Below, in pieces: positions 8,879 to 64,000 of a DNA stretch of 64,000 nt (positions are counted from its first letter, which is position 1; each line of letters opens with the position of its first letter). The position numbers and the translations under genes are program-made. This DNA is from Verrucomicrobiota bacterium (GTDB lineage Bacteria > Verrucomicrobiota > Verrucomicrobiia > Limisphaerales > PALSA-1396): assembly GCA_016200005.1 (NCBI GenBank), contig JACQFP010000026.1, positions 62,001 through 126,000 on the forward strand, given 5' to 3'. The notes below the pieces were generated by a model. That model had not been told where the DNA came from. It saw only the letters and a program-made list of their open reading frames with translations, and ran no database searches.

Positions 8879-9840
8879 CAAACGCCCGACTCGTGATCAT
8901 CGACCGCCATCATCTACCGTGGGCCGTGTTTGTGGTTGTCGCAACCGCGGCGGCCATCGTCGTCTATCTCGCCAATTTCCATCCGGATTCGCTCCCGTTT
9001 CCTGTGACCCTGCCGGCGTTTCTTGGTCCGACGCCGCCGTTGCGCGGCACCGTGGGTGGCAGTCCGCTGGGATTGATCTTCGGCATCGCGTCCGCGCTGA
9101 TTTTTGTATTCGCGGCGATGCTCGGTGCCCGTCGCAAAAAGCCTGCTTGGCGCGTGGGCCGCGTCCAGCTTTGGCTGAAAGCGCACATCTGGCTGACGGT
9201 GCTGACGATTCCACTGGTACTGCTTCATTCCGGATTTTCCACTGGCGGACCGATGACGAAACTGCTGCTGGCGCTTTACGCTGTAGTGATGGTGAGCGGT
9301 TTCTATGGACTGGCGTTGCAACATTTTCTCCCGCGCTTGATGAAGGACGAACTCCCACAGGAAATAATCTTCGAACAAATCCCGCATATCCTGGAACAAT
9401 TGCGCGAAGCCGGGCAAAAGCTGCGTCAAAGCCTGGAGTCAGCCGCCGTGGCAGCGCCCGCGGTGACGGCTTCCGCAACGAGCGCACCCGCTGGGGCGTT
9501 GCCGAAAGCGGATCCTGCTGATGATTCAATTCTCATATTGAAAGCCTTCCTGGATCACGAAGCGTTGCCTTACTTGGGCGCGCGGCGGGGAGAGAAATTG
9601 CATCTCGGCAACCAGCGCACTTCCGACGAACTCTTTCGCACGTTGAAGATCAGCATTACCGCCAACTGGCACGCTGAAGCGGAACGTCTTCAAAGCTGGT
9701 GCGATGAGCGGCGCCAACTGGATCGCCAGACCCGGCTGCAACACTGGCTCCACGGCTGGCTGTTCGTGCACGCGCCGTTTTCGTTTCTGCTGCTGGTTTT
9801 GACCGCCTGGCACGCCGTCGTAACCTTGTTGCGCTATTAA
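8875..9840 (+). CDS. Membrane protein with haem-b-like helix histidines
   Basis: A 321-residue protein starting at TTG 8875, which overlaps the TGA of the ferredoxin fusion gene (GTG 8893 is an alternative). Hydrophobic segments lie near residues 14-33, 64-82, 101-118, 127-147 and 295-315. Histidines sit in or beside them (KAHIWL, LLHSGF, WLHGWLFVHAPF, TAWHAVV), as in cytochrome b-type ferric or ferredoxin:quinone reductases. Between segments four and five is a soluble helical insertion of about 140 residues rich in Ala and Glu. It lies between the iron-sulfur protein and the decahaem cytochrome, so a quinone-linked membrane electron carrier is likely. No named family is certain. Confidence 0.7.
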   Translation: MTNARLVIIDRHHLPWAVFVVVATAAAIVVYLANFHPDSLPFPVTLPAFLGPTPPLRGTVGGSPLGLIFGIASALIFVFAAMLGARRKKPAWRVGRVQLWLKAHIWLTVLTIPLVLLHSGFSTGGPMTKLLLALYAVVMVSGFYGLALQHFLPRLMKDELPQEIIFEQIPHILEQLREAGQKLRQSLESAAVAAPAVTASATSAPAGALPKADPADDSILILKAFLDHEALPYLGARRGEKLHLGNQRTSDELFRTLKISITANWHAEAERLQSWCDERRQLDRQTRLQHWLHGWLFVHAPFSFLLLVLTAWHAVVTLLRY

Positions 9841-9849
9841 ACTGACAAA

Positions 9850-11259
9850 ATGGCCCAACCCGACCGAACTCAGAAACAGGTTGCCGAACGGTACAAAGGC
9901 AATCTGGACTATTACAAAAAACCGCACTACTTGCGGCGCGGGAAGTTTTGGGTGGTAACCATTTTGGTGACGCTCGGCGTCGCGAGCATGTGCGCTTATC
10001 ACTGGTGGGGCGGCGAAAAGTTCTACAGCTCCGGCAGCATCTCCCGTCCGCACGCTCATTTCGCTAACAATTGCGGCGCCTGCCATGCCGGTGGCAGTTT
10101 GCTTCAGGAAATCAAATCCTCATCGCGCAACGCCATTGACACCGCCTGCCTGCAATGCCACCAGGGCCACGCCTTTCATCAACCGAACGTGGTGCAAGAC
10201 CATTCCTGCACCGCCTGTCACCACGAGCACAAGGGCCAAGGCCCGATGAAATCGCCTGACAACGCCAACTGCCTCGTCTGCCACGCGGACACAGCGATCT
10301 TGGAAGCGTCTTTTCAAAAGGGAAAAAATCTGCCGGCGGAAGCTTTTGACTATCGTCCGAGTCACGGCCTCGCGCTCTTCAAATCGCCGCGCCCATCGCG
10401 CGGTCACACGCAAGTCGTTCATGCCTTCGCCACCGACCATCCGGAATTTCAAGTTGTCGTTGAAAAACTCAAGGACCCGGACACGCTCAAGTTCAATCAT
10501 CAACTCCATCTGGCATCGCCCGACATTCCATCAGTGAACGGAAAAAAACTCGACTGCGCTGACTGTCACCAACCCAATGCCGCCGGCGTGTTCCACCAGA
10601 GAATCTCCTTTGAAGCCAACTGCAAGTCCTGCCACTCACTTCAATTTGACGCGAAGAATCCCGAATTGTTGATCCCGCACGGGAATCCGGAGTTCGTGCG
10701 CGCCTTCCTGCGCAGCCTGCCCGTTCAATACGCCGACCTGGCGCGCCGCAAGGGAATGAACGCCGAAGGTGACGTGGCGGATTTTGTCAAACGGCAGATG
10801 CTGCAAATTCGCGACGAGGTCTTGAGCGGTGAAAATCTGGAGCAGCAAGTTTTCTTCAGCGACGCCCGGACAGGCCCAGTTGGCCGGATTGGCCGGTTGG
10901 ATGATCAAGGCCGCGCCCGCTTTGCCGGCTGCGCCTATTGTCACGAAGTCAAACCGGTTGCGGAATCGTCGCCGACAATCACCAAGCCGATCATTCCAGA
11001 CCGCTGGTTGATTCGCGGTCGATTCAATCACGCCAAACACCTCACCGTGGGCTGTGTCAAATGCCACGATGTCAGCCACAGTCGGGAAACTTCAGACATC
11101 CTCCTGCCTTCTAAAGCTGCTTGCGTCACCTGCCACAGTCCGCAAGGCGGCGTGGCACACGATTGTTCGACGTGTCACAGGTATCATGCACAAAGTAAAA
11201 CCGGCGTCCCGCCTGTTCCGTTGGGGAAAGAGACTGCGGCGACTCATTTCGGTCGATGA
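9850..11259 (+). CDS. Membrane-anchored decahaem c-type cytochrome
   Basis: A 469-residue protein with a short cytoplasmic N-terminus, one membrane anchor (about residues 33-53) and ten CxxCH motifs: CGACH, CLQCH, CTACH, CLVCH, CADCH, CKSCH, CAYCH, CVKCH, CVTCH and CSTCH. The first four are closely packed, the next two are central and the last four cluster near the C-terminus, as in cytochrome c3/c7-type repeats. It follows the membrane protein by nine bases and completes the ferredoxin-membrane-cytochrome set. The expected role is periplasmic electron transfer between a membrane quinone site and an oxidase, reductase or external acceptor; the partner is not in the window. Confidence 0.88.
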   Translation: MAQPDRTQKQVAERYKGNLDYYKKPHYLRRGKFWVVTILVTLGVASMCAYHWWGGEKFYSSGSISRPHAHFANNCGACHAGGSLLQEIKSSSRNAIDTACLQCHQGHAFHQPNVVQDHSCTACHHEHKGQGPMKSPDNANCLVCHADTAILEASFQKGKNLPAEAFDYRPSHGLALFKSPRPSRGHTQVVHAFATDHPEFQVVVEKLKDPDTLKFNHQLHLASPDIPSVNGKKLDCADCHQPNAAGVFHQRISFEANCKSCHSLQFDAKNPELLIPHGNPEFVRAFLRSLPVQYADLARRKGMNAEGDVADFVKRQMLQIRDEVLSGENLEQQVFFSDARTGPVGRIGRLDDQGRARFAGCAYCHEVKPVAESSPTITKPIIPDRWLIRGRFNHAKHLTVGCVKCHDVSHSRETSDILLPSKAACVTCHSPQGGVAHDCSTCHRYHAQSKTGVPPVPLGKETAATHFGR

Positions 11260-48705: not shown

Positions 48706-49758
48706 TCAAGGGTTGAATAAATCTGGCTGGCCGTCCGGCTTCTTGTCATCAAAGCCAACTCGCTTAACATCCTCCAACCAATCCAGAACAGTTTCGCGGT
48801 CGGACGGGTTCTTGAATTCAAAGATTATTGTCTTCGTTGCGAAGCGGACTTTGTTTGGCAATCTCTCTTTCCAGTATTCAAAGATTCGTCGGAAAATGTT
48901 CTCAGTAATGACGCGCTCCATGCTCTTCTGTCGTCCGCGTCCCAAGAAGTCAAAAACTCCGATGGTAGTCAGCTTCAACAATTCTTGGGCGCTGATTTCA
49001 AGAGTTTGCTCATCAGTTCTGCGATGTAAAATGCACAGCAAATTAGCCACAGCTTGATTCTGCAACACTCGACGGTAATACCCGGCTCGCGCGCTGTCGG
49101 GGCAGTCTTCATCCGAATAGACAAGCAACAACGGGCTTGGGTCTGTTTCTTGGTCCAGACCCTTCATCACGGCGACCTCTTTTTCAGATGTTGATAGGAG
49201 CGCGCGGATCGGTTTGTCTAGGTGATATACCAGTTCAGCGCCGCGAATGGACAACCCATCTACCGCAAAATCTCCGGCCTCAAGTTTTGCTGATTTAAGT
49301 CCAACCTTCAGCGCGCTCAAGCAGTTGCGCATCGAATCCACGTCTTCGGATGGCACGACGTAGTCGAGCAGCGCGCCGGCAAGCGGTTTGTAAACTTCCG
49401 CGAACGACGGCCCACAAGCCAGCAGATGTCCGCGCGCCTGTCTTGAATTTGAACTTGCCTGCGAAAAGCCCTGTGTTTTGGCTTCGAAGTAAATCGCCCG
49501 TCCGTCCGTGTGCCGCAGAACTGTCAACTCCGGCTCTGGGTTCAGATTGATTTCAAGTGATAGAGTCTGTGCAATAGATTCGATCTGGTTTCTCGCTTCC
49601 GTTGGGAATGGGAATGGTTGCTCAATGTAATGCAGTTGAAAGCCGTGCTCGTGGAAAAACGCGCGGACTCGGAAGCCATTTTGCGGCTGCTCTTTGGCCA
49701 TCCAGACCAGCAGATTCAACTGGAAAACTGGGTCGCGGATGGCTTCTTCAGGATTCAT
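48706..49758 (-). CDS. Unrecognised protein with candidate PD-(D/E)XK nuclease core
   Basis: A 350-residue protein, no named family recognised. PELTVLRHTDGRAIYFEAK gives E77...E92-A93-K94, the spacing of PD-(D/E)XK nuclease active sites, in a beta-hairpin context. A second, weaker IIFEFKNPSD lies at 311-320. The middle part is helical. ATG 49758 overlaps the upstream gene's stop by 11 bases (49748-49758), implying coupling. The DNA looks more A+T-rich than the flanks. Together with the upstream gene it could be a defence or DNA-processing pair; this is inference. Confidence 0.5.
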   Translation of the reverse strand: MNPEEAIRDPVFQLNLLVWMAKEQPQNGFRVRAFFHEHGFQLHYIEQPFPFPTEARNQIESIAQTLSLEINLNPEPELTVLRHTDGRAIYFEAKTQGFSQASSNSRQARGHLLACGPSFAEVYKPLAGALLDYVVPSEDVDSMRNCLSALKVGLKSAKLEAGDFAVDGLSIRGAELVYHLDKPIRALLSTSEKEVAVMKGLDQETDPSPLLLVYSDEDCPDSARAGYYRRVLQNQAVANLLCILHRRTDEQTLEISAQELLKLTTIGVFDFLGRGRQKSMERVITENIFRRIFEYWKERLPNKVRFATKTIIFEFKNPSDRETVLDWLEDVKRVGFDDKKPDGQPDLFNP

Positions 49759-51028
49759 TGTTGGCCGCTTTGAGATCCATTTTGTCGAGGAACGCTTCGA
49801 AGCGTTTACTGCCCAGCCATGCATCAATCTTGGGACAAACGTAGCGCTGAATGTTCGTCACAAGGCGATGAAACGTGTTGCCACAAGTTCCATGTGGTAG
49901 AATTGCAACCACTCCACGTTCCGTGAGTTCCATATTGATTGGCTGCCACAGATGACGATCCGCTCCGTAAACGTGAACCTTTGTTGGGCCGAGGCGAAGT
50001 GGCTCTCCCCAAAGTTTGAAAAGGCCATTCTTGCGAAACGCTCTGGAAATCCAAAAATCAAATGTTGGTTTCGACAGCGGCTCATCGAGAAAAGTGACAA
50101 TGAGCGGAACACCGCCCCAACCTACAACCTTGCCCTGGTTCGCCTGCGGCTCTCCCCAAGCATGATCCTCGGTTGTCTCCAAGACGGACTTATAGATGCG
50201 GTAAAGATAGCGAGCGGTATTCCGGTGATCCTCAAAATTGTCTGCGCGATTTGTCACCTGGCCATGTTGAAACAACTCGTGACCACCTCGGCCAAGGTGA
50301 GATGGAATCCGAACAGAGAAAAGAGCGTTGAGAGGCGAGTAGCTGTCTTGCAAGGCGTCTAAAGATTTGCGGATGCGCCCGATGCAGTCTCCCATTTCGG
50401 AGCGGAACTTGCGCCTCTCCAATTCTGGAGACTCATCCGTCTCTGGTTCTTCGGCGAGAGCAGTTGCCTCTTCATCTTCTACTGCGTCCACAGCATCCTC
50501 TGGCAACTCGAACACGCTTTCATGCCTAAAAACCAGTTTGCCAAAGCGAAGATCCCCACGCAGCGATACATCCCTGTCCCAAAGCGCCTTTAGCAGTGGG
50601 CTGGTAAACCAAGCAAAGTCCAAATCGGGCGAACGCGTCGCCCATTTTGTGACTCGCTTTCGCGCGTTCAAGCTGTCCTCGGTTGTGTAGTAAGCGAAGA
50701 ACCGTTCGTCGTATCGCTCCAAGTAACCGGTGATTGTCCGCATTGGCACTGCAGTTTCAGATTCTTTCACCAAATCCTCGACTGAGAAAAAGCTTTCGTC
50801 TATCTGAGTTGGCTCGGTATGCAAGTCCCTCCAGATTTCGGTGAGTGGTCTGACCTTCGCGCCGTTTCTTGAACTCACGTGCTCCAGCAAAAAAGTTTTA
50901 ACCAGCGGAACACGCATACGCCCACGCTCAAGCCCTTCCTTCCCTTCAGCCGACAAACCGTTGAAAACACGATAAACCTCAAAGCGGTTTTTCGGCTTCT
51001 TCGGTAGTTTTGTCAGTGCGTTGGACAC
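49748..51028 (-). CDS. Unrecognised 426-residue partner of the candidate nuclease
   Basis: A soluble protein, start GTG 51028 (MSNALTKLPKKPKNRFEVYRVFNGLS). No family is recognised. The N-terminal 175 residues are mixed alpha/beta, an acidic linker rich in Glu, Asp and Ala follows (about residues 178-205), and the C-terminal half has GKVVGWGGVPLIVTFLDEPLSKPTFDFWISRAF and HVYGADRHLWQPINMELTERGVVAILPHGTCGN. It has no transmembrane segment. It is followed, with an 11-base overlap, by the candidate nuclease. Function cannot be given. Confidence 0.5.
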   Translation of the reverse strand: MSNALTKLPKKPKNRFEVYRVFNGLSAEGKEGLERGRMRVPLVKTFLLEHVSSRNGAKVRPLTEIWRDLHTEPTQIDESFFSVEDLVKESETAVPMRTITGYLERYDERFFAYYTTEDSLNARKRVTKWATRSPDLDFAWFTSPLLKALWDRDVSLRGDLRFGKLVFRHESVFELPEDAVDAVEDEEATALAEEPETDESPELERRKFRSEMGDCIGRIRKSLDALQDSYSPLNALFSVRIPSHLGRGGHELFQHGQVTNRADNFEDHRNTARYLYRIYKSVLETTEDHAWGEPQANQGKVVGWGGVPLIVTFLDEPLSKPTFDFWISRAFRKNGLFKLWGEPLRLGPTKVHVYGADRHLWQPINMELTERGVVAILPHGTCGNTFHRLVTNIQRYVCPKIDAWLGSKRFEAFLDKMDLKAANNES

Positions 51029-51083: not shown

Positions 51084-51257
51084 TCAATCCAGCCGGCAAT
51101 ACGCCGCCAGGCCTTGCAATTCGCCCTCGCGACCGAAGCCGCTTTCCTTGTAGCCGCCGAACGGACTCGTCGGGTCGAACTTCTTATAGGTGTTCGCCCA
51201 GACGCCGCCGGCGCGCAGCTTGTTGACCATCTTGAATATCTTGCTGCCCTTGTCGGG
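51084..51257 (-). pseudogene. C-terminal fragment of an aldehyde dehydrogenase
   Basis: The frame encodes VNKLRAGGVWANTYKKFDPTSPFGGYKESGFGREGELQGLAAYCRLD, the last 50-60 residues of an aldehyde dehydrogenase, with the FGGxKxSGxGRE motif. The remaining 430 residues, including the catalytic Cys and Glu, are absent. The homology ends just where the DUF2442 gene ends (51263), which suggests that an insertion or deletion destroyed the gene. Confidence 0.8.
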
Positions 51258-51262
51258 CAGTT

Positions 51263-51574
51263 TCACCTGGCCTTGCGCTTGCCGCGTTTTTCCAACCAAC
51301 GCGCAAAAGACTGCTGGCTTTCGCCCGATGGTTTGCCCAGCACCAGCCCTTCAATGCTGATGTCCTCGTCCAAGTCCGGCCAGTGGATGCCTTCGCCGCG
51401 ACCGATGAAGCGCCAGTGGTTGCGTTCCTTGGCCGTGCCGTGCAACAGCCGCGGAAACCAAGCGAGCGGCGCGGTGATGGTGCGTCCGTCGGAAAGTGTC
51501 ACCATCAGCGTGTCCGCGGTCACTTTTACGTTTTCGCCCGCGACAGCCCGTGGTTCATCCACCAAAGTATTCAT
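51263..51574 (-). CDS. DUF2442-domain protein
   Basis: A 103-residue protein with the DUF2442 pattern: NVKVTADTLMVTLSDGRTITAPLAWFPRL and GRGEGIHWPDLDEDISIEGLVLGKPSGESQQSFARWL. It is encoded directly after a DUF4160 gene (20-base overlap). DUF4160/DUF2442 pairs are common small modules on chromosomes and accessory elements and resemble toxin-antitoxin cassettes in arrangement, but function is not established. The basic tail ends EKRGKRKAR. Confidence 0.85.
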   Translation of the reverse strand: MNTLVDEPRAVAGENVKVTADTLMVTLSDGRTITAPLAWFPRLLHGTAKERNHWRFIGRGEGIHWPDLDEDISIEGLVLGKPSGESQQSFARWLEKRGKRKAR

Positions 51575-51791
51575 TCCATTCCTCTAACAGTTCTTCGCGG
51601 TGCTTTTCAAGCAACCGCTGAATTCGATTGAGTTCAACGCTACCAAATCCACCGCTCCTTTGCAACCGCACCGGGTTGAGCCAGAACTTGGCGTTGCTCC
51701 GGTCGCGCTCGACGTGGATATGGGGCGGCTCGTCGCGATCGCCCGCGTAAAAGAAAAAACGATACGGCCCAATGCGCAAAACCGTCGGCAT
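51555..51791 (-). CDS. DUF4160-domain protein
   Basis: A 78-residue protein of the DUF4160 family: MPTVLRIGPYRFFFYAGDRDEPPHIHVERDRSNAKFWLNPVRL, then an RIQRLLEKHREELLEEWNEYF helix. The PPHIHVE histidines are the family hallmark. It overlaps the DUF2442 gene by 20 bases, so the two are expressed together. A mobile or toxin-antitoxin-like cassette is suspected from the family's distribution. Confidence 0.87.
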   Translation of the reverse strand: MPTVLRIGPYRFFFYAGDRDEPPHIHVERDRSNAKFWLNPVRLQRSGGFGSVELNRIQRLLEKHREELLEEWNEYFGG

Positions 51792-57721: not shown

Positions 57722-57943
57722 ATGAGCACGGCGACAGAAATTGAAACCGCCATTCGCAACCTTCCGACATCGGAAGCGCGCGCCGTCGCAAAATGGCTGC
57801 ACGAGTATCTCGTTCGTGAGGTTGACACGCCGCTGCCGCTCGCCGGAGACGCCTTGGCCAAATGGCGCGGACGCGGGCGGCTGCCAGTTGGCCGCAACGC
57901 CGACGCCTACCTGCAAGTGACTCGCGATGGCAACGGCAGTTGA
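57722..57943 (+). CDS. Putative antitoxin of a VapBC-type module
   Basis: A 73-residue protein: MSTATEIETAIRNLPTSEARAVAKWLHEYLVREV followed by a basic, disordered tail GDALAKWRGRGRLPVGRNADAYLQVTRDGNGS. The short N-terminal helical part, with a basic toxin-binding tail, is typical of antitoxins paired with PIN-domain toxins. It overlaps the toxin ORF start (57927) by 17 bases. The downstream toxin is frameshifted, so the module may be degenerate. Confidence 0.7.
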   Translation: MSTATEIETAIRNLPTSEARAVAKWLHEYLVREVDTPLPLAGDALAKWRGRGRLPVGRNADAYLQVTRDGNGS

Positions 57944-58338
57944 CACCTCGGTGTTGCTTGATGTGCTGCTGGCAGACCCACTGCACGCGGCACGCTCGGA
58001 AGCTGCTCTGCGCAATGCTTCATCCCGAAGGTGGTTTGATCGTTTGCGAAATAGTCGTTGCCGAAATTGTTCCTGTGCTCACGCCTGCTTCCGTCCAGGA
58101 GTTTCTCGCCGACTGGCACCTCGCTTTTCTTCCTTCATCCGCAGAAAGCTCCGTGCTTGCGGGACGCATGTTTCATCGTTATTTGGAGCGCGGCGGCAAA
58201 CGCGGCCGGGTCGTGCCGGACTTCCTTGTTGCCGCCCACGCGCAACTTCATGCCGACGGTCTTTTAGCCCGCGACCGGGGTTATTACCGGGATTATTTTC
58301 AAGACCTGAAACTTCTTGATCCGAGCCGCCCGGCATAA
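57927..58338 (+). pseudogene. Frameshifted VapC (PIN-domain) toxin
   Basis: The first frame gives MATAVDTSVLLDVLLADPLHAARSEAALRNASS with the first PIN Asp; the following VapC sequence EGGLIVCEIVVAEIVPVL...VPDFLVAAHA...LLARDRGYYRDYF, with the remaining Glu and Asp residues, lies in the +1 frame. A single-base insertion in the CCC run at 58024-58026 would explain it, since removing one C joins both frames smoothly. All four acidic PIN positions remain across the two frames. It may be a pseudogene or a sequencing error. Confidence 0.85.
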
Positions 58339-58531: not shown

Positions 58532-61500
58532 CTAGACCAGCGCCTCGCTGCAAACGATTCTCGGGACTGGTCGACCTGTGGGATGGAGGCTTCGCCGGTC
58601 AAGCCAGTCACGGAGATTATGCTGGTCGTAAATGCGGGCGAGCGCCTTCAGAAGCGGTTCACCGCTCATGCCGTTCCGCCGCAGAAGCACCACTTCGCGG
58701 TTGACGGCTCGTGTTATTGGCCCTCGGAAAGATTTTTCGAGCACGTTGATCATTGCCTTCTGATCTTCATCCGTGCTGGCCCCAAACAGCACGCGCAACT
58801 CGCGCAAGACATAATTCTGCCCGTGGCTCAAAGACAAGGTATGCGTACGCTCGGCTTGGCGGTGCTTCACTTCTTCGGCGAACTGCCGTTGCACTCGCAT
58901 CACGGACACGTTGTAATCTTTCGGCAGCGCTTGGCTCTTCAATTCCGGTCCGCACTTGATCGCGCTAAGAATCTTTGGAATGTCTTTCGACACGACCGCG
59001 CCGTTTGCATCGAGCAGAAACAATTGCTGGTATCCCTTCGAGGATTCACGTTCGGGATACGACGCCTCGCAAAAAACAAATTGTCCCTTGAGCGTGGATG
59101 ACTTTGCCGCGCGGATGCCGTCGCGCAAATCAGCGATCCTCCCGTATTCTGCCGGGTTCTCCTTCCGCAACTGCCGCAAGATTTCTTCCGCCTCATTCAG
59201 GTCGAGGAACTCGTCTTCCTCATCTTCAAACAGACTCAACTGGCCGCCATGCTTTTCCTCGTAAATGGCATACATGGCGTCTTCGTTCAGCCGCTCGGTG
59301 CGGTCGAGAATTTCCGAGTCCTCACCAATGGTGTCGTGAATTTCTTGAATGCGGTTGTGAAGCTTCTGCTTCAACCCCAGGTTCTTGTCCAAGCCGGTTT
59401 CCGGCAGGAAATTAAATCCGTAAACCACATCGTGGTCGCTGCCAATGCGGTCAATGCGCCCGAAGCGCTGAATGAGCCGGACTGGATTCCAGTGAAGGTC
59501 ATAATTGAGGATGTTGTCGCAGTCCTGAAGGTTCAATCCTTCCGCCAGCACGTCCGTCGCCACCACCGTGAACAACTCTTTCTCACCTGCCGTGGATTTG
59601 TACTCCGGGTTTGCTTTCGGCGCGAACCGCCCCACAACTCGCGCCTTGCTTTTATCGCCGCTGAAAATCACGTCAATGTCGTCCCGTTTGCCGCCGGGAT
59701 TCAGATTGTCGTGGAGGTATCTCGCTGTGTCGGCGTACTGCGTGAAGATCAACCGCTTCCCATCCTTCAGCGGCTTTTTCCCCAGGTATTCTTTCAACTT
59801 TTGCAACTTGGCATCCTGCTCCGGCGTGATCGGCTTGACGCACTCCAGGATTTTTCTCAACAGCTTCACGTCGTGCTCGATGGCCGCTTTCAGGCGCGAC
59901 AAATCAAAGTCACCAATGTCGTATCGGCCTGACACCTGCCGCAGCGCGTCCATCAAATCTTGTTCCTCGGCCTGGTTCGGTTCGTAAAGAATCGCTTGTG
60001 CCTCGTCGCCCGCAGGAACAAAGCCTAGCTCCAGTGCTTGCAAGAATCGCTCATGGACCAGAAGCAGTCGGCGGACAGTCTCCTTGAACGCAAAGACGCT
60101 CGACTCGAACCGTTTGAAGAGAAGAATGCGGATTAGGCCGCGCAGCGTTGCGCCAGCGCGGTGCAAGCTGGCGTAAGGCTCACGCCTTTGTTTCTCGGCA
60201 GGCACGTAGTTGTACAGTCCATACCGGGCGTAGGTGAGTTCCTCGCCGGTAGGTTGGATGATGCGTCGCGGCGTTTTCTTTTTTGAGGGCTTGCCGATAT
60301 AGCCGAGCAATTCCTGGTACAACCCGCGGTAAGTGTCCTCGATGCTGTATTCAATCGTCTCCAACTCGCGCTTGGGGAAAAACTGGTGACGCCCGCCGAC
60401 GAACACATACGCCCGCTTTCTGCCGTCGAGATAATCCCGGAACTGTGACGGGTCAACCTGCTGGTGCGTCTCGGAATCAAAACCATACCAGCGCAAAATA
60501 TGATTGCGCGTCCGGCGGATGAGAATATTCGCCAGCAAGTCCGGTAGCTTCCGTTGGCCATCCTCAATCAATTTGAAGTATTGCTTCAAGTCTGGCGGAT
60601 CAACTGGCAAATCCGTTTTGTCATCCGGATGGAACAACTTGATTTGGGAATAAACATCCCACGCACTTTTGTTGCGCGGCGTGGCCGTCAGGAGACAGCA
60701 ACGCCGGCCAGTGCTCAAAAACGCCTCCACCACCTTGTATCGCTGCGTGTCGCGATGCCGAAGGTTGTGGCTCTCATCAATCAGCACGAAATCACGGTCC
60801 TTGTAGAGCACGTTTTCCAGCAGCGTATTCACCGCGCCATCGTCGTCCTCGCGCAGAAACCCCATCGAAAGCACCCGGGCGTTCAATTGATACACCTCGT
60901 TGTATCGCTCCCACATCTCCACCAGTGGAGCGGGGCAGATGATGAGCGCACGCGCGTGATCCGTGCGCTCAAAATGCTTCACGATGGCCGCGCCGATGTA
61001 GCTCTTGCCCAAGCCAACCACGTCCGCCACGAACGCGCCGCCGTAATCCTTGATGATCTGCACCCCCTGCCGCACCGCCACTTTCTGAAAATCCGCCAGC
61101 CGCTTCGTGATTTCGTCATCCCACAAAATATCCTTGTCGTTTTCGCCTTCGAGCCGGTCGCGCACCAGCGTGTAGAGCGTCTTCATGTACACGTCATACG
61201 GGCGCACGGACGCGACCGCCCAGGACTGCTTCATCTCCTGCATCAACGCTTCGTCAAAGTCCTGCGACTCCTTCCACAATTCATCAAACCAATCGCCGAG
61301 GAACTTGTGATTATCATTCCCCTGCACACACACGTTTAACTCTGTGTTGTGGGTGACGCCCGACAGCGTGAGATTCGACGAGCCGACTACGGCGATACCT
61401 TTTTCCTGCCGTTCAAGTTCTTTTCCCTGCTTGTCATAGATTTTCCCGTAATTGAAAATGTAAGCCTTCGCGTGTAACCGGCCTTTGGTATAGACCTTCA

Positions 61501-61906
61501 CCTTGAGCCGTTTCTCCTCGACCATCCGCACCAGCGTCGTCACCACCGCCTGCGCTTCATCCGTCTGATCCATCAGTTCGATGGCCGACCGGATGTTGCC
61601 CGCCGTTTCACCGGCCATGCGTTTCGTATCCGTGCGCTTGGGATACGCTTCGGCTTCCGCCGCTTCCGCCACCAAGTCCAGCCGCCGATAGCCCTCGGCC
61701 AATTGCTCCAACGTCTCGCGGTTCGTCGTGTTCCCGATGAGCAACCGCAACTCCTTCACACCTGCCAGTCGTTGCGCGATGCTCTCCAGCCCGGAAAGGA
61801 AAAAATATCCGACCGCAAACCGCGCCGACTCCGTTGACGACAGGATGCGGTTGATGTGGTCAACCAGCTTTTCCTTGCGGTTATCTATGATGTCGTGAGT
61901 GGGCAT
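58532..61906 (-). CDS. Phospholipase D-like/SF2 helicase fusion protein
   Basis: An 1124-residue protein. Residues about 20-225 form a PLD-nuclease-like domain with a single HxK (LHAKAYIF, H145/K147) and GSSN (175-178), so one HKD half-site per chain. From about 270 a Snf2/DEAD-like helicase follows: Walker A GLGKS at 298-302, DESH at 377-380, TATP at 407-410 and the C-terminal RecA-like motif VI QRFGRIDRIGS. The length and order resemble helicase-nuclease proteins of phage-defence systems (DISARM/BREX-like neighbourhoods). It follows the DNA methyltransferase gene by four bases in the same operon, supporting restriction or defence. Confidence 0.85.
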   Translation of the reverse strand: MPTHDIIDNRKEKLVDHINRILSSTESARFAVGYFFLSGLESIAQRLAGVKELRLLIGNTTNRETLEQLAEGYRRLDLVAEAAEAEAYPKRTDTKRMAGETAGNIRSAIELMDQTDEAQAVVTTLVRMVEEKRLKVKVYTKGRLHAKAYIFNYGKIYDKQGKELERQEKGIAVVGSSNLTLSGVTHNTELNVCVQGNDNHKFLGDWFDELWKESQDFDEALMQEMKQSWAVASVRPYDVYMKTLYTLVRDRLEGENDKDILWDDEITKRLADFQKVAVRQGVQIIKDYGGAFVADVVGLGKSYIGAAIVKHFERTDHARALIICPAPLVEMWERYNEVYQLNARVLSMGFLREDDDGAVNTLLENVLYKDRDFVLIDESHNLRHRDTQRYKVVEAFLSTGRRCCLLTATPRNKSAWDVYSQIKLFHPDDKTDLPVDPPDLKQYFKLIEDGQRKLPDLLANILIRRTRNHILRWYGFDSETHQQVDPSQFRDYLDGRKRAYVFVGGRHQFFPKRELETIEYSIEDTYRGLYQELLGYIGKPSKKKTPRRIIQPTGEELTYARYGLYNYVPAEKQRREPYASLHRAGATLRGLIRILLFKRFESSVFAFKETVRRLLLVHERFLQALELGFVPAGDEAQAILYEPNQAEEQDLMDALRQVSGRYDIGDFDLSRLKAAIEHDVKLLRKILECVKPITPEQDAKLQKLKEYLGKKPLKDGKRLIFTQYADTARYLHDNLNPGGKRDDIDVIFSGDKSKARVVGRFAPKANPEYKSTAGEKELFTVVATDVLAEGLNLQDCDNILNYDLHWNPVRLIQRFGRIDRIGSDHDVVYGFNFLPETGLDKNLGLKQKLHNRIQEIHDTIGEDSEILDRTERLNEDAMYAIYEEKHGGQLSLFEDEEDEFLDLNEAEEILRQLRKENPAEYGRIADLRDGIRAAKSSTLKGQFVFCEASYPERESSKGYQQLFLLDANGAVVSKDIPKILSAIKCGPELKSQALPKDYNVSVMRVQRQFAEEVKHRQAERTHTLSLSHGQNYVLRELRVLFGASTDEDQKAMINVLEKSFRGPITRAVNREVVLLRRNGMSGEPLLKALARIYDQHNLRDWLDRRSLHPTGRPVPRIVCSEALV

Positions 61907-61910
61907 AATT

Positions 61911-64000
61911 TCATGCGTTCCTGCCAGCCCAGACGAATTTCCCGGTGGACGTCAGGTTAAATCGTTCGCGCGGCACATTGAGTTTGCCGCGAATGGCCCG
62001 GACTTTGGCGGGGATTTTCTGTTTCTTTTCCAATTCTTCCCACGAGACTGCGGGCGGGATGCCTGCGGGGACGGTTTCGTCGGCAACGGTTTCTTTGAGA
62101 AATTTGGAGAAGGATTCGTAGCTGGCGTCGAGGGCGAGCAATTTCTTGCTCTCGTTTTCGCTAGCGTCAAATTTGAACTGCCTGACCTGATGAACCGCAT
62201 CAGCTACGACCGGCCATGCGGCTTGGATGCGTTTGTCTTTCCACAGCGCGGGCGTCCAGCCGCCGAGTTCCACCGGGCCGCCATCGGCCTTGTGTTCGAG
62301 CAGCCACTCGGCTTTCTCGGCGAGCCACCAGCGGAAGGCGTCCACGAATTCCTGAGCGTAGGCGACCGGGCCGGCCATCCAACGGTTGCTCACCTTCCAT
62401 TGCTCGTCCCAGCGGCGTTTATAGACCGGCTGCTCAATGCGGCGGATGTGTTCGTTGTCGCGGATGGCGGCGAGGCGCGCTTCCCATAATGTGCGGCGCG
62501 GCTTCGGCCAGTCTGCGGGAATCAGCGTAATGGCTTTGTCGAAATCGCCACCGGTGGATTCCCATAGACGGAAAGGGCGTTGCGCCTGATTGAGCGGCGC
62601 GGGTTCGGCTTCAACTTGCGCGGCGGAATGATCGGCGAGCAACAGGCCGTAAGCGGCATAGACCAGCCAGTCCATTTCTTCCTGCCGGGCGACCATCCCG
62701 GCGCCCAACTGCTCGCGCAGGGACACGGCGCGGGCGAAACGCTCCTGCAACTCGGGGGTGGTGGCGAAGGCCGCTGCGAGTTTGGCGTGCGGCGCCACAT
62801 GGCCGGGCAACGCGGCGTTCCAGGCGTGATACGCCTCGCCGGATTTCTCGAACAACTTCCGCAACGCCAGCGACGGCAACACGCGCCCGCGTTCCCAGCA
62901 GGCGCGCGACAACGCGGTCAATCGCTCCGCCAGCGCGTTCGGTTTGCCGCGCAGGGCGTCGGCAATTGATCGTGCTAGAGGCAACCGCTGAAGCTTCTTG
63001 CCAGCAAATTCAAAATATGTGTCCTTATCTCCGTCTTCAGACTCCCGCTTGCTAAAGCACTCGTGCTTTAACCAGAAAAGCGCAGTCGAGGAGTTGAGTT
63101 CTGAAGCAAGCAAATGATAATCACCCGGCTCGGCTTTTGCCGGGAGTTTTACCAGCGGGGCTTTCTCATTGAATGCGCAACCGTCAAAATCCACGACGAA
63201 ATGACCGTGCGTCGAGATTTGAGAAAGCGCAATGGACTTTGGATTTTTGGCACGTTCGACCGGCATCTGGTGAAACTGGTAGGGCTTTCGGCCCGCTTCT
63301 TTGAAGCTCCCCTTGAATGTTGGCCTGTTCGATAGCTCTTCGGAAAATAACTCGAAGTATTTACCCATCGGCGACGTGTTGCTCAATTCAAGCAAACGAA
63401 TCGAAGATTGGTCATACGGAAAAATCAAAAACGCGTCGCCGCATAGCTGCCAGTCCCTAACCTCATCGCCAACATTGAGCCGTTTTAAGCTTGCCGGCGG
63501 TATCTCCTGCCGCCGCACATGGTCGGCAGTGCTCATAAAAATATCATTCCGGCCAAGAATGAACATAAATCCCACATCGTCGCCCAAAGTATCCCGCAAC
63601 GGGTCTGAATCTGACCGGTTCAACACATCCAATGTCGGCCAATCGTAGAAGCTTAAAAGCGCCGGGTGGCGCAACATTCTTTTCCGGTCACAATCACCAA
63701 CTGCAATTCGGGTGTCTTCAAACAGCTTGCGGAATCCGACGGTCTGCTCTGCGTTGTTCAACTCTTGAATTGGAATGGGTTCTTGCTGGGATTCGATTGT
63801 ATGCCAAAGTGGACTCTCCTCTGGAGTAGTTCGGAGATCACCGCCGCTCGGCAGAATAGCGACAACGCGAACAGGCAACCGCATCCAGTCGGCATCTTGC
63901 GGACTTGAAACCTGCCTCCCATAAACGATGCACGTAGGCGTGCCATGACCGGGAAACATTAGTCCCGAGCAATCCACTATTTTCTGAACATGTACAGTCT
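61911..64000 (-). CDS. C-terminal part of a PglX/type IIG-like adenine methyltransferase
   Basis: The frame is open to the right edge, so at least 696 residues are seen and the N-terminus is outside the window. Close to the visible beginning, CSGLMFPGHGTPTCIVYGR matches the post-catalytic motif of PglX/type IIG N6-adenine methyltransferases (SGxYxPGHGTPTxIxxGR). The SAM and NPPY motifs would lie further right. The rest is a target-recognition-like region with helical repeats (WSTGGDFDKAI-like, RRIEQPVYKRRWDEQW) and ends KGKFVWAGRNA-like. The helicase gene follows after four bases, so both act together, most likely in DNA modification-dependent defence. Confidence 0.75.
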   Translation of the reverse strand, partial: TVHVQKIVDCSGLMFPGHGTPTCIVYGRQVSSPQDADWMRLPVRVVAILPSGGDLRTTPEESPLWHTIESQQEPIPIQELNNAEQTVGFRKLFEDTRIAVGDCDRKRMLRHPALLSFYDWPTLDVLNRSDSDPLRDTLGDDVGFMFILGRNDIFMSTADHVRRQEIPPASLKRLNVGDEVRDWQLCGDAFLIFPYDQSSIRLLELSNTSPMGKYFELFSEELSNRPTFKGSFKEAGRKPYQFHQMPVERAKNPKSIALSQISTHGHFVVDFDGCAFNEKAPLVKLPAKAEPGDYHLLASELNSSTALFWLKHECFSKRESEDGDKDTYFEFAGKKLQRLPLARSIADALRGKPNALAERLTALSRACWERGRVLPSLALRKLFEKSGEAYHAWNAALPGHVAPHAKLAAAFATTPELQERFARAVSLREQLGAGMVARQEEMDWLVYAAYGLLLADHSAAQVEAEPAPLNQAQRPFRLWESTGGDFDKAITLIPADWPKPRRTLWEARLAAIRDNEHIRRIEQPVYKRRWDEQWKVSNRWMAGPVAYAQEFVDAFRWWLAEKAEWLLEHKADGGPVELGGWTPALWKDKRIQAAWPVVADAVHQVRQFKFDASENESKKLLALDASYESFSKFLKETVADETVPAGIPPAVSWEELEKKQKIPAKVRAIRGKLNVPRERFNLTSTGKFVWAGRNA

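Follow-up and report, generated by a model that had tools for sequence, protein, structure and literature searches.

The two overlapping genes described here, A and B, are probably an undescribed defence module, and we put at roughly 0.6 the probability that they form a mobile two-gene anti-invader module with A as its nucleic-acid-recognising part and B as its nuclease. They lie in a stretch of 64,000 nucleotides from a Verrucomicrobiota genome (contig JACQFP010000026.1, positions 62,001 to 126,000), referred to below as the window. The genes form a pair of constant order that is co-inherited, carries an invariant catalytic motif and is found in defence and mobile-element contexts, and a role in defence would follow from this genomic context.

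Both of the open reading frames originally predicted are present, as is the overlap of 11 bases between them (Table 1), from which translational coupling is likely. Alignment of homologues favours the GTG start for A, and the ATG start over a longer TTG frame for B, and an overlapping or nearly abutting arrangement is seen in most homologous loci. With two long overlapping frames, and with pairing, order and motifs that recur across phyla, the pair exceeds chance. Each gene is single-copy in the genome. The higher A+T content noticed earlier holds on measurement, the 2.3-kb A+B stretch having a G+C content of 51.4%, where the window as a whole has 58.0% (2.3-kb windows, sd 2.3%), which is essentially the window minimum, and the GC3 of A and B being 0.55-0.57 against 0.62-0.74 in other genes checked. 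The flanks, judged by sequence, consist of a LolA-like gene, an aldehyde dehydrogenase fragment and DUF2442/DUF4160-like genes; the last two had been named as neighbours beforehand and are recognisable by eye, the dehydrogenase through ...FGGYKESGFGREG... in particular. Directly upstream of A (51084-51791, minus strand), the C-terminal dehydrogenase fragment is overlapped by the DUF2442-like gene, which in turn is overlapped by the DUF4160-like gene. This cassette was not seen adjacent to the pair in homologous loci and is not part of the conserved unit.

Table 1. Genes and predicted features of the A-B locus and its surroundings, in window coordinates.
Feature	Position	Strand	Basis
Gene B, 350 aa, ATG start	49758-48706	(-)	ORF calling
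QPDLF, candidate sliding-clamp-binding motif (QxxLF), B residues 344-348	48715..48729	(-)	disordered tail
C-terminal helical/winged-helix-like region, B residues 222-334	48757..49095	(-)	DSSP of model
PD-(D/E)XK core P76-E77 ... E92-A-K94 ... Q107, B residues 76-107	49438..49533	(-)	alignment
Overlap of A and B, 11 bp	49748-49758	(-)	
Gene A, 426 aa, GTG start	51028-49748	(-)	ORF calling
TBP-like unit 3 (beta-alpha-beta4-alpha), A residues 307-396	49841..50110	(-)	DSSP + alignment
TBP-like unit 2 (one strand fewer), A residues 204-292	50153..50419	(-)	DSSP + alignment
Acidic disordered linker, A residues 178-203	50420..50497	(-)	pLDDT <50
TBP-like unit 1 (beta-alpha-beta4-alpha), A residues 44-132	50633..50899	(-)	DSSP + alignment
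Broken aldehyde dehydrogenase	51084-51299	(-)	recognised by eye
DUF2442-like + DUF4160-like cassette	51263-51574, 51555-51791	(-)	recognised by eye from sequence
HKD(PLD)-SNF2 helicase, 1124 aa (context only)	58532..61906	(-)	PADLOC C3a139 HKD+Snf2 1.9e-77, assigned by sequence
PglX/type IIG-like methyltransferase, 1520 aa (context only)	61911..64000	(-)	PADLOC PglX 5.3e-77

Neither A nor B matched any model in Pfam-A, NCBIfam 2026 or PADLOC-DB (2023 version), even at an E-value of 10, and searches of profiles of the two against PDB sequences returned chance matches only. This agrees with the original prediction that neither belongs to a recognised family, and no housekeeping family was matched by either protein. 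In the literature no paper naming the pair was found, a description in subscription journals remaining possible, and together with the lack of a family model this upholds its standing as a candidate undescribed system.

The assignment of B as a PD-(D/E)XK nuclease is strong. The residues first proposed as its core, E77, E92 and K94, are at the positions claimed, and none of the 29 homologues checked has lost the core: each has an acidic residue (D or E) at positions 77 and 92, K at 94 and the overall D/E..(D/E)xK..Q pattern. This count includes the B protein of L002, although the A and B proteins of L002 are identical to those of L015 (apparently the same genome) and it was not treated as a separate locus. 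Within the alignment of 22 B proteins N15, P76, E92, K94 and Q107 are invariant and residue 77 is always acidic (D or E); the archaeal and Lysinibacillus copies additionally carry QxxxY, which is typical of RecB/Cas4 nucleases. The AF2 model of B (pLDDT 90.5, pTM 0.87) contains, by DSSP, a helix, strands at 78-82 and 87-93, and a further helix at 104-114. Foldseek returned nothing for it at E<=0.001, the top of the list being occupied by Can2, Cdn1, BstEII, CdiA-CT toxins, Lassa endonuclease and LmuA (weak, best E 0.04); this weak retrieval of several different PD-(D/E)XK nucleases is in line with the nuclease-like fold that had been expected. Members of the B family also gave weak matches to the Pfam models HSDR_N_2, PDDEXK_1 and PDDEXK_11. 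The activity of B would presumably be that of a DNase.

In the model, B appears to end in a winged helix, as the part after residue 220 gave weak Foldseek matches to the wHTH proteins SqrR, HlyU, Orc1 and Csa3. The last ~16 residues are disordered (pLDDT <50 at 339-347), and it is in this exposed segment that QPDLF, a candidate clamp-binding motif, is located. The bacterial clamp-binding consensus is QL[S/D]LF, or more generally QxxLF, and the motif of B. subtilis PolC is QLSLF (PMC12309361). Of 22 B tails, six have a Q..LF within the last 25 residues, whereas none of 129 neighbouring proteins does (Fisher p 5e-6, relatedness ignored) and 0.19 are expected in shuffles. The tails vary by lineage: those of L040 and Lysinibacillus contain QLSLF, most in Acidimicrobiia have ..LFD alone, those of Bacillales are mostly QxTIDxF and the motif is absent in archaea; the archaeal and Acidimicrobiia tails are mostly without the full QxxLF. 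By its sequence, the tail may couple B to the sliding clamp.

Gene A encodes a conserved family (24 aligned members), more conserved than B, and its AF2 model (pLDDT 83.9, pTM 0.86) weakly suggests three helix-grip units like those of the TATA-binding protein (TBP). The beta-alpha-beta4-alpha succession is the order of the TBP repeat. K44, E49 and R109 are invariant in unit 1 and G256, T259, Y279 and E287 in unit 2. The strongest conservation is a family signature in unit 3, G-x-D-x-H ... LPxGTCGNTxxR, where G341, D357, H359, L377-P378, G380, C382-T385, R388 and Q394 are invariant. The C-x5-R within it (C382-R388) recalls a tyrosine-phosphatase signature, a reading rejected because the model helix begins right at G383. 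An acidic linker had been attributed to the larger partner, and it is indeed present as a disordered segment whose length varies across the alignment. Against the PDB, TBPs, AdoMetDC and RnlA lead a non-significant Foldseek list for A (best E 0.014), and against BFVD the TBPs and TBP-like viral proteins are prominent, again weakly (best E 0.003), with nothing at E<=0.001; comparison within A by hhalign found no sequence similarity among the three units. TBP-like domains bind nucleic acid in TBP itself and RNA-DNA hybrids in RNase HIII. They are also present in some RNase LS proteins (PMC3710099).

The pair recurs widely. Searching plasmids with A by tblastn recovered loci in Metabacillus, Lysinibacillus and Halobacterium and on the 58-kb element of M. 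jannaschii, each of the four having a second gene that overlaps the end of A and whose product contains the B motif. A scan of 84,980 species genomes for A yielded 30 loci in at least 8 phyla, a lower bound from a scan that relied on two short peptide patterns. Adjacent pairs were found in Verrucomicrobiota, Acidobacteriota, Planctomycetota, Acidimicrobiia, Chloroflexota, Bacillota and archaea, with B directly 3' of A in most loci and the two co-occurring in almost every one. Pairwise distances of A and B are correlated (Mantel r 0.94, p 1e-4), and therefore the two genes move together. Within its own phylum the intact pair is present in 2/388 genomes, and the copies nearest to that of the window are planctomycete, acidobacterial and lentisphaeral (55-59% for A), suggesting acquisition by horizontal transfer. 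Fragments in G042 (L012), G077 (L004), G280 (L005) and G046 (L048) were judged decayed or chance and were left out of the counts. The first of these belongs to a genome in the same class; there, a fragment from the C-terminus of A is fused in frame to a TnpB-like zinc-ribbon sequence (L012 1417-1908). Searches of annotated phage genomes gave no match to A-B, and a scan of viral contigs gave none with the full A alignment and one contig with B.

Recurrence of the pair near defence genes, which had been anticipated, was observed with DISARM, Gabija, Hma/HEC-01-like and type I R-M neighbours. Class-1 DISARM operons hold A-B in four loci, three of them in Acidimicrobiia (L023, L025, L034) with the order DrmD-DrmMI-(~3 kb)-A-B-DrmA-DrmB-DrmC on one strand, and the fourth (L019) with A-B-DrmA-DrmB-DrmC; DrmA and DrmB occur together only in these. 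The ~3-kb interval between DrmMI and A-B (L025 6554-9689 and its equivalents in L023 and L034) holds variable, partly opposite-strand genes, one of which, in L025, encodes 382 aa and has a phospholipase-D-like stretch, HPKGFLF...SANLS. GajA and GajB adjoin A alone in L022 and the pair in L026, and GajB plus remnants lie near A in L024. Locus L040 reads HmaC - ASCH/DUF7680 - A - B - HEC-01A - HEC-01B - HmaB. Elsewhere a weak PglZ-like gene overlaps A (L042), a DUF6094-methyltransferase/helicase lies upstream (L035), type I R-M genes are near the pair (L027 and L032), and an OLD/GajA-like ATPase is near that of M. jannaschii. Defence context is absent or unrecorded in several loci (e.g. L014, L015, L017, L020), and related loci, for example those of Acidimicrobiia, are non-independent cases; the variety of neighbouring defence systems is the stronger argument for a defence role. 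The original prediction had likened a coupled nuclease and large partner to the layout of small defence systems, and the conservation of the pair in immune and mobile contexts agrees with this.

The window itself contains a second candidate, absent from the earlier account. At its right edge, starting 7.5 kb from A-B, an HKD(PLD)-SNF2 helicase and a PglX/type IIG-like methyltransferase form a candidate R-M-like defence system, the methyltransferase extending past the window end (full ORF, L044 3912-8474). The helicase also holds QLSLF (EEKHGGQLSLFEDEEDEF), the same clamp-binding consensus. Nearby, at 57862-58338 on the plus strand, a PIN/VapC-like sequence appears to be divided between two frames (the one starting at 57927 containing the N-terminal part, MATAVDTSVLLDVLL) and is probably a frameshifted toxin gene. 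Among the window proteins, one has matches of ~1e-20 to PADLOC models for PycTIR/TIR effectors and one has a match to PDC-M72A.

As an anti-invader module, the pair may work as follows. B would be a PD-(D/E)XK DNase with a core resembling those of RecB/Cas4-type nucleases, and A would be the partner that B cannot do without: a TBP-like protein of three units, whose most likely role is to bind nucleic acid. If TBP and RNase HIII are a guide, the ligand of A could be a DNA structure or an RNA-DNA hybrid. A would position or license B, presumably in a complex, and in many bacterial versions the QxxLF tail may tether B to the sliding clamp, biasing cutting towards replicating DNA. The module could act against phages on its own, as in the window genome, or plug into larger systems such as class-1 DISARM. 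A more specific version is possible though doubtful: a replication-coupled module of bacteria and archaea, clamp-tethered in the former, in which A senses a feature of the invading replicon and activates B, and which DISARM and other systems have recruited as an auxiliary effector.

Patterns of decay bear on the alternatives. Beside an intact A, B is truncated in three loci of Acidimicrobiia (29 aa left in L021, 71 aa in L023 and 166 aa in L034) and missing in two more (L022, L024), and A is frameshifted in L016 and internally deleted in L037. In the last, A without its middle part is followed by an OLD/AAA_21-like ATPase in place of B (9767-10994), which is either a remnant or an alternative pairing. 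This decay fits a costly nuclease and leaves room for a toxin-antitoxin pair, an unlikely explanation in which B is a self-toxic nuclease that the first-encoded A holds inactive until infection or element loss. The partner-first gene order with overlap, the five Acidimicrobiia loci with A but no complete B, and the fact that no intact B was seen without A, for example among the 388 genomes of the phylum, would suit such a pair, as would a homologous PemK/MazF gene that lies upstream of A in six loci from Bacillales and on one IMG/VR contig. The genome loci were, however, collected through A, and for that reason loss of A is poorly sampled; moreover, A is large, is more conserved than its partner and has invariant polar residues, which is unusual for an antitoxin, and a position between DISARM core genes better suits an effector module. 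The PemK/MazF-family gene (~240 aa) forms a three-gene array with A-B in L006, L027, L028, L029, L030, L032 and L043.

Less likely again is that A-B serves mobile elements (plasmids, prophages or integrative elements) and not host defence, with a selfish or maintenance role in their replication, their recombination or the exclusion of competitors. One plasmid each of Metabacillus and Lysinibacillus, a Halobacterium megaplasmid and the M. jannaschii extrachromosomal element carry A-B, and on the IMG/VR contig (L043) the array is in the lysogeny region, with cI-like repressors on one side and an ImmA-like/integrase region on the other (phage-type genes by eye); the clamp-like tail of B would also suit replication-linked work. 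The pair is, however, also chromosomal and occurs within immune loci such as the DISARM and Hma/HEC-01-like operons, and exclusion between elements would itself count as defence. On the IMG/VR contig PemK is separated from A by a transposase gene, with A and B intact (L043 3154-4722). It is very improbable that A-B is a horizontally spread host DNA repair or recombination complex with a housekeeping role, since the RecB/Cas4-like motif order and clamp-binding-like tail do occur in replication and repair proteins but the rarity of the intact pair in its own phylum, the A+T-rich patch, decay in several loci and recurrent defence neighbours oppose it.

If the mobile anti-invader reading is correct, it adds a small immune module for which the libraries searched contain no family model and which is common to bacteria and archaea, the long-unexplained extrachromosomal element of M. 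jannaschii being among its carriers. It would also represent a pairing of a TBP-type domain and a nuclease without the remaining TOTE/TALON parts, account for unannotated genes within DISARM operons, and suggest that some defence nucleases locate their target via the replication clamp.

In comparison with known systems, B shares the D/E ... (D/E)xK ... Q core of the PD-(D/E)XK superfamily (RecB/Cas4-like, HSDR_N and PDDEXK_1 relatives), but no Pfam, NCBIfam or PADLOC model covers it, and a specific winged-helix-like C-terminus and QxxLF tail set it apart. With class-1 DISARM (DrmD-DrmMI-DrmA-DrmB-DrmC) the likeness is one of position, A-B following DrmMI and preceding DrmA on one strand in L023, L025 and L034; however, neither gene matches a Drm family, these loci have a DrmC as well, and most pairs, that of the window included, are without DISARM genes. 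Among the 25 families listed for the window there was no DrmB, the only DISARM-type matches being those of SNF2/DrmD-type helicases, of which the 3e-20 match to the DrmA model is one. As for the BREX-related DUF499/DUF1156 systems (Hma, BR), HmaC- and HmaB-like genes surround A-B in L040, where the combination of BrxC/DUF499 ATPase, methyltransferase and helicase with A-B is partly present. BREX and BR systems are known to recruit auxiliary PD-(D/E)XK nucleases (PMC12839542), but a TBP-like partner goes unmentioned in that paper. No DUF499/BrxC was among the families listed for the window, whose pair lies outside any BREX/Hma-type operon.

TOTE comprises TPR, OB, TBP and effector components, to which TALON adds a NERD PD-(D/E)XK nuclease, and A-B would resemble these in combining, within a single operon, a putative TBP-type protein with a PD-(D/E)XK nuclease (PMC12458937). 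Unlike them, A has three divergent units of weak TBP similarity, and among the flanking genes, judged by sequence, neither a TPR-cold-shock nor a YprA gene lies beside the window pair. The weak Foldseek match of A to RnlA recalls RNase LS and RnlAB, but no HEPN RNase domain is recognised in A, which is partnered by a PD-(D/E)XK-like protein. In the window genome, A-B is no member of DISARM, BREX, Hma, TOTE or TALON, and would instead work like an R-M-type or auxiliary nuclease module.
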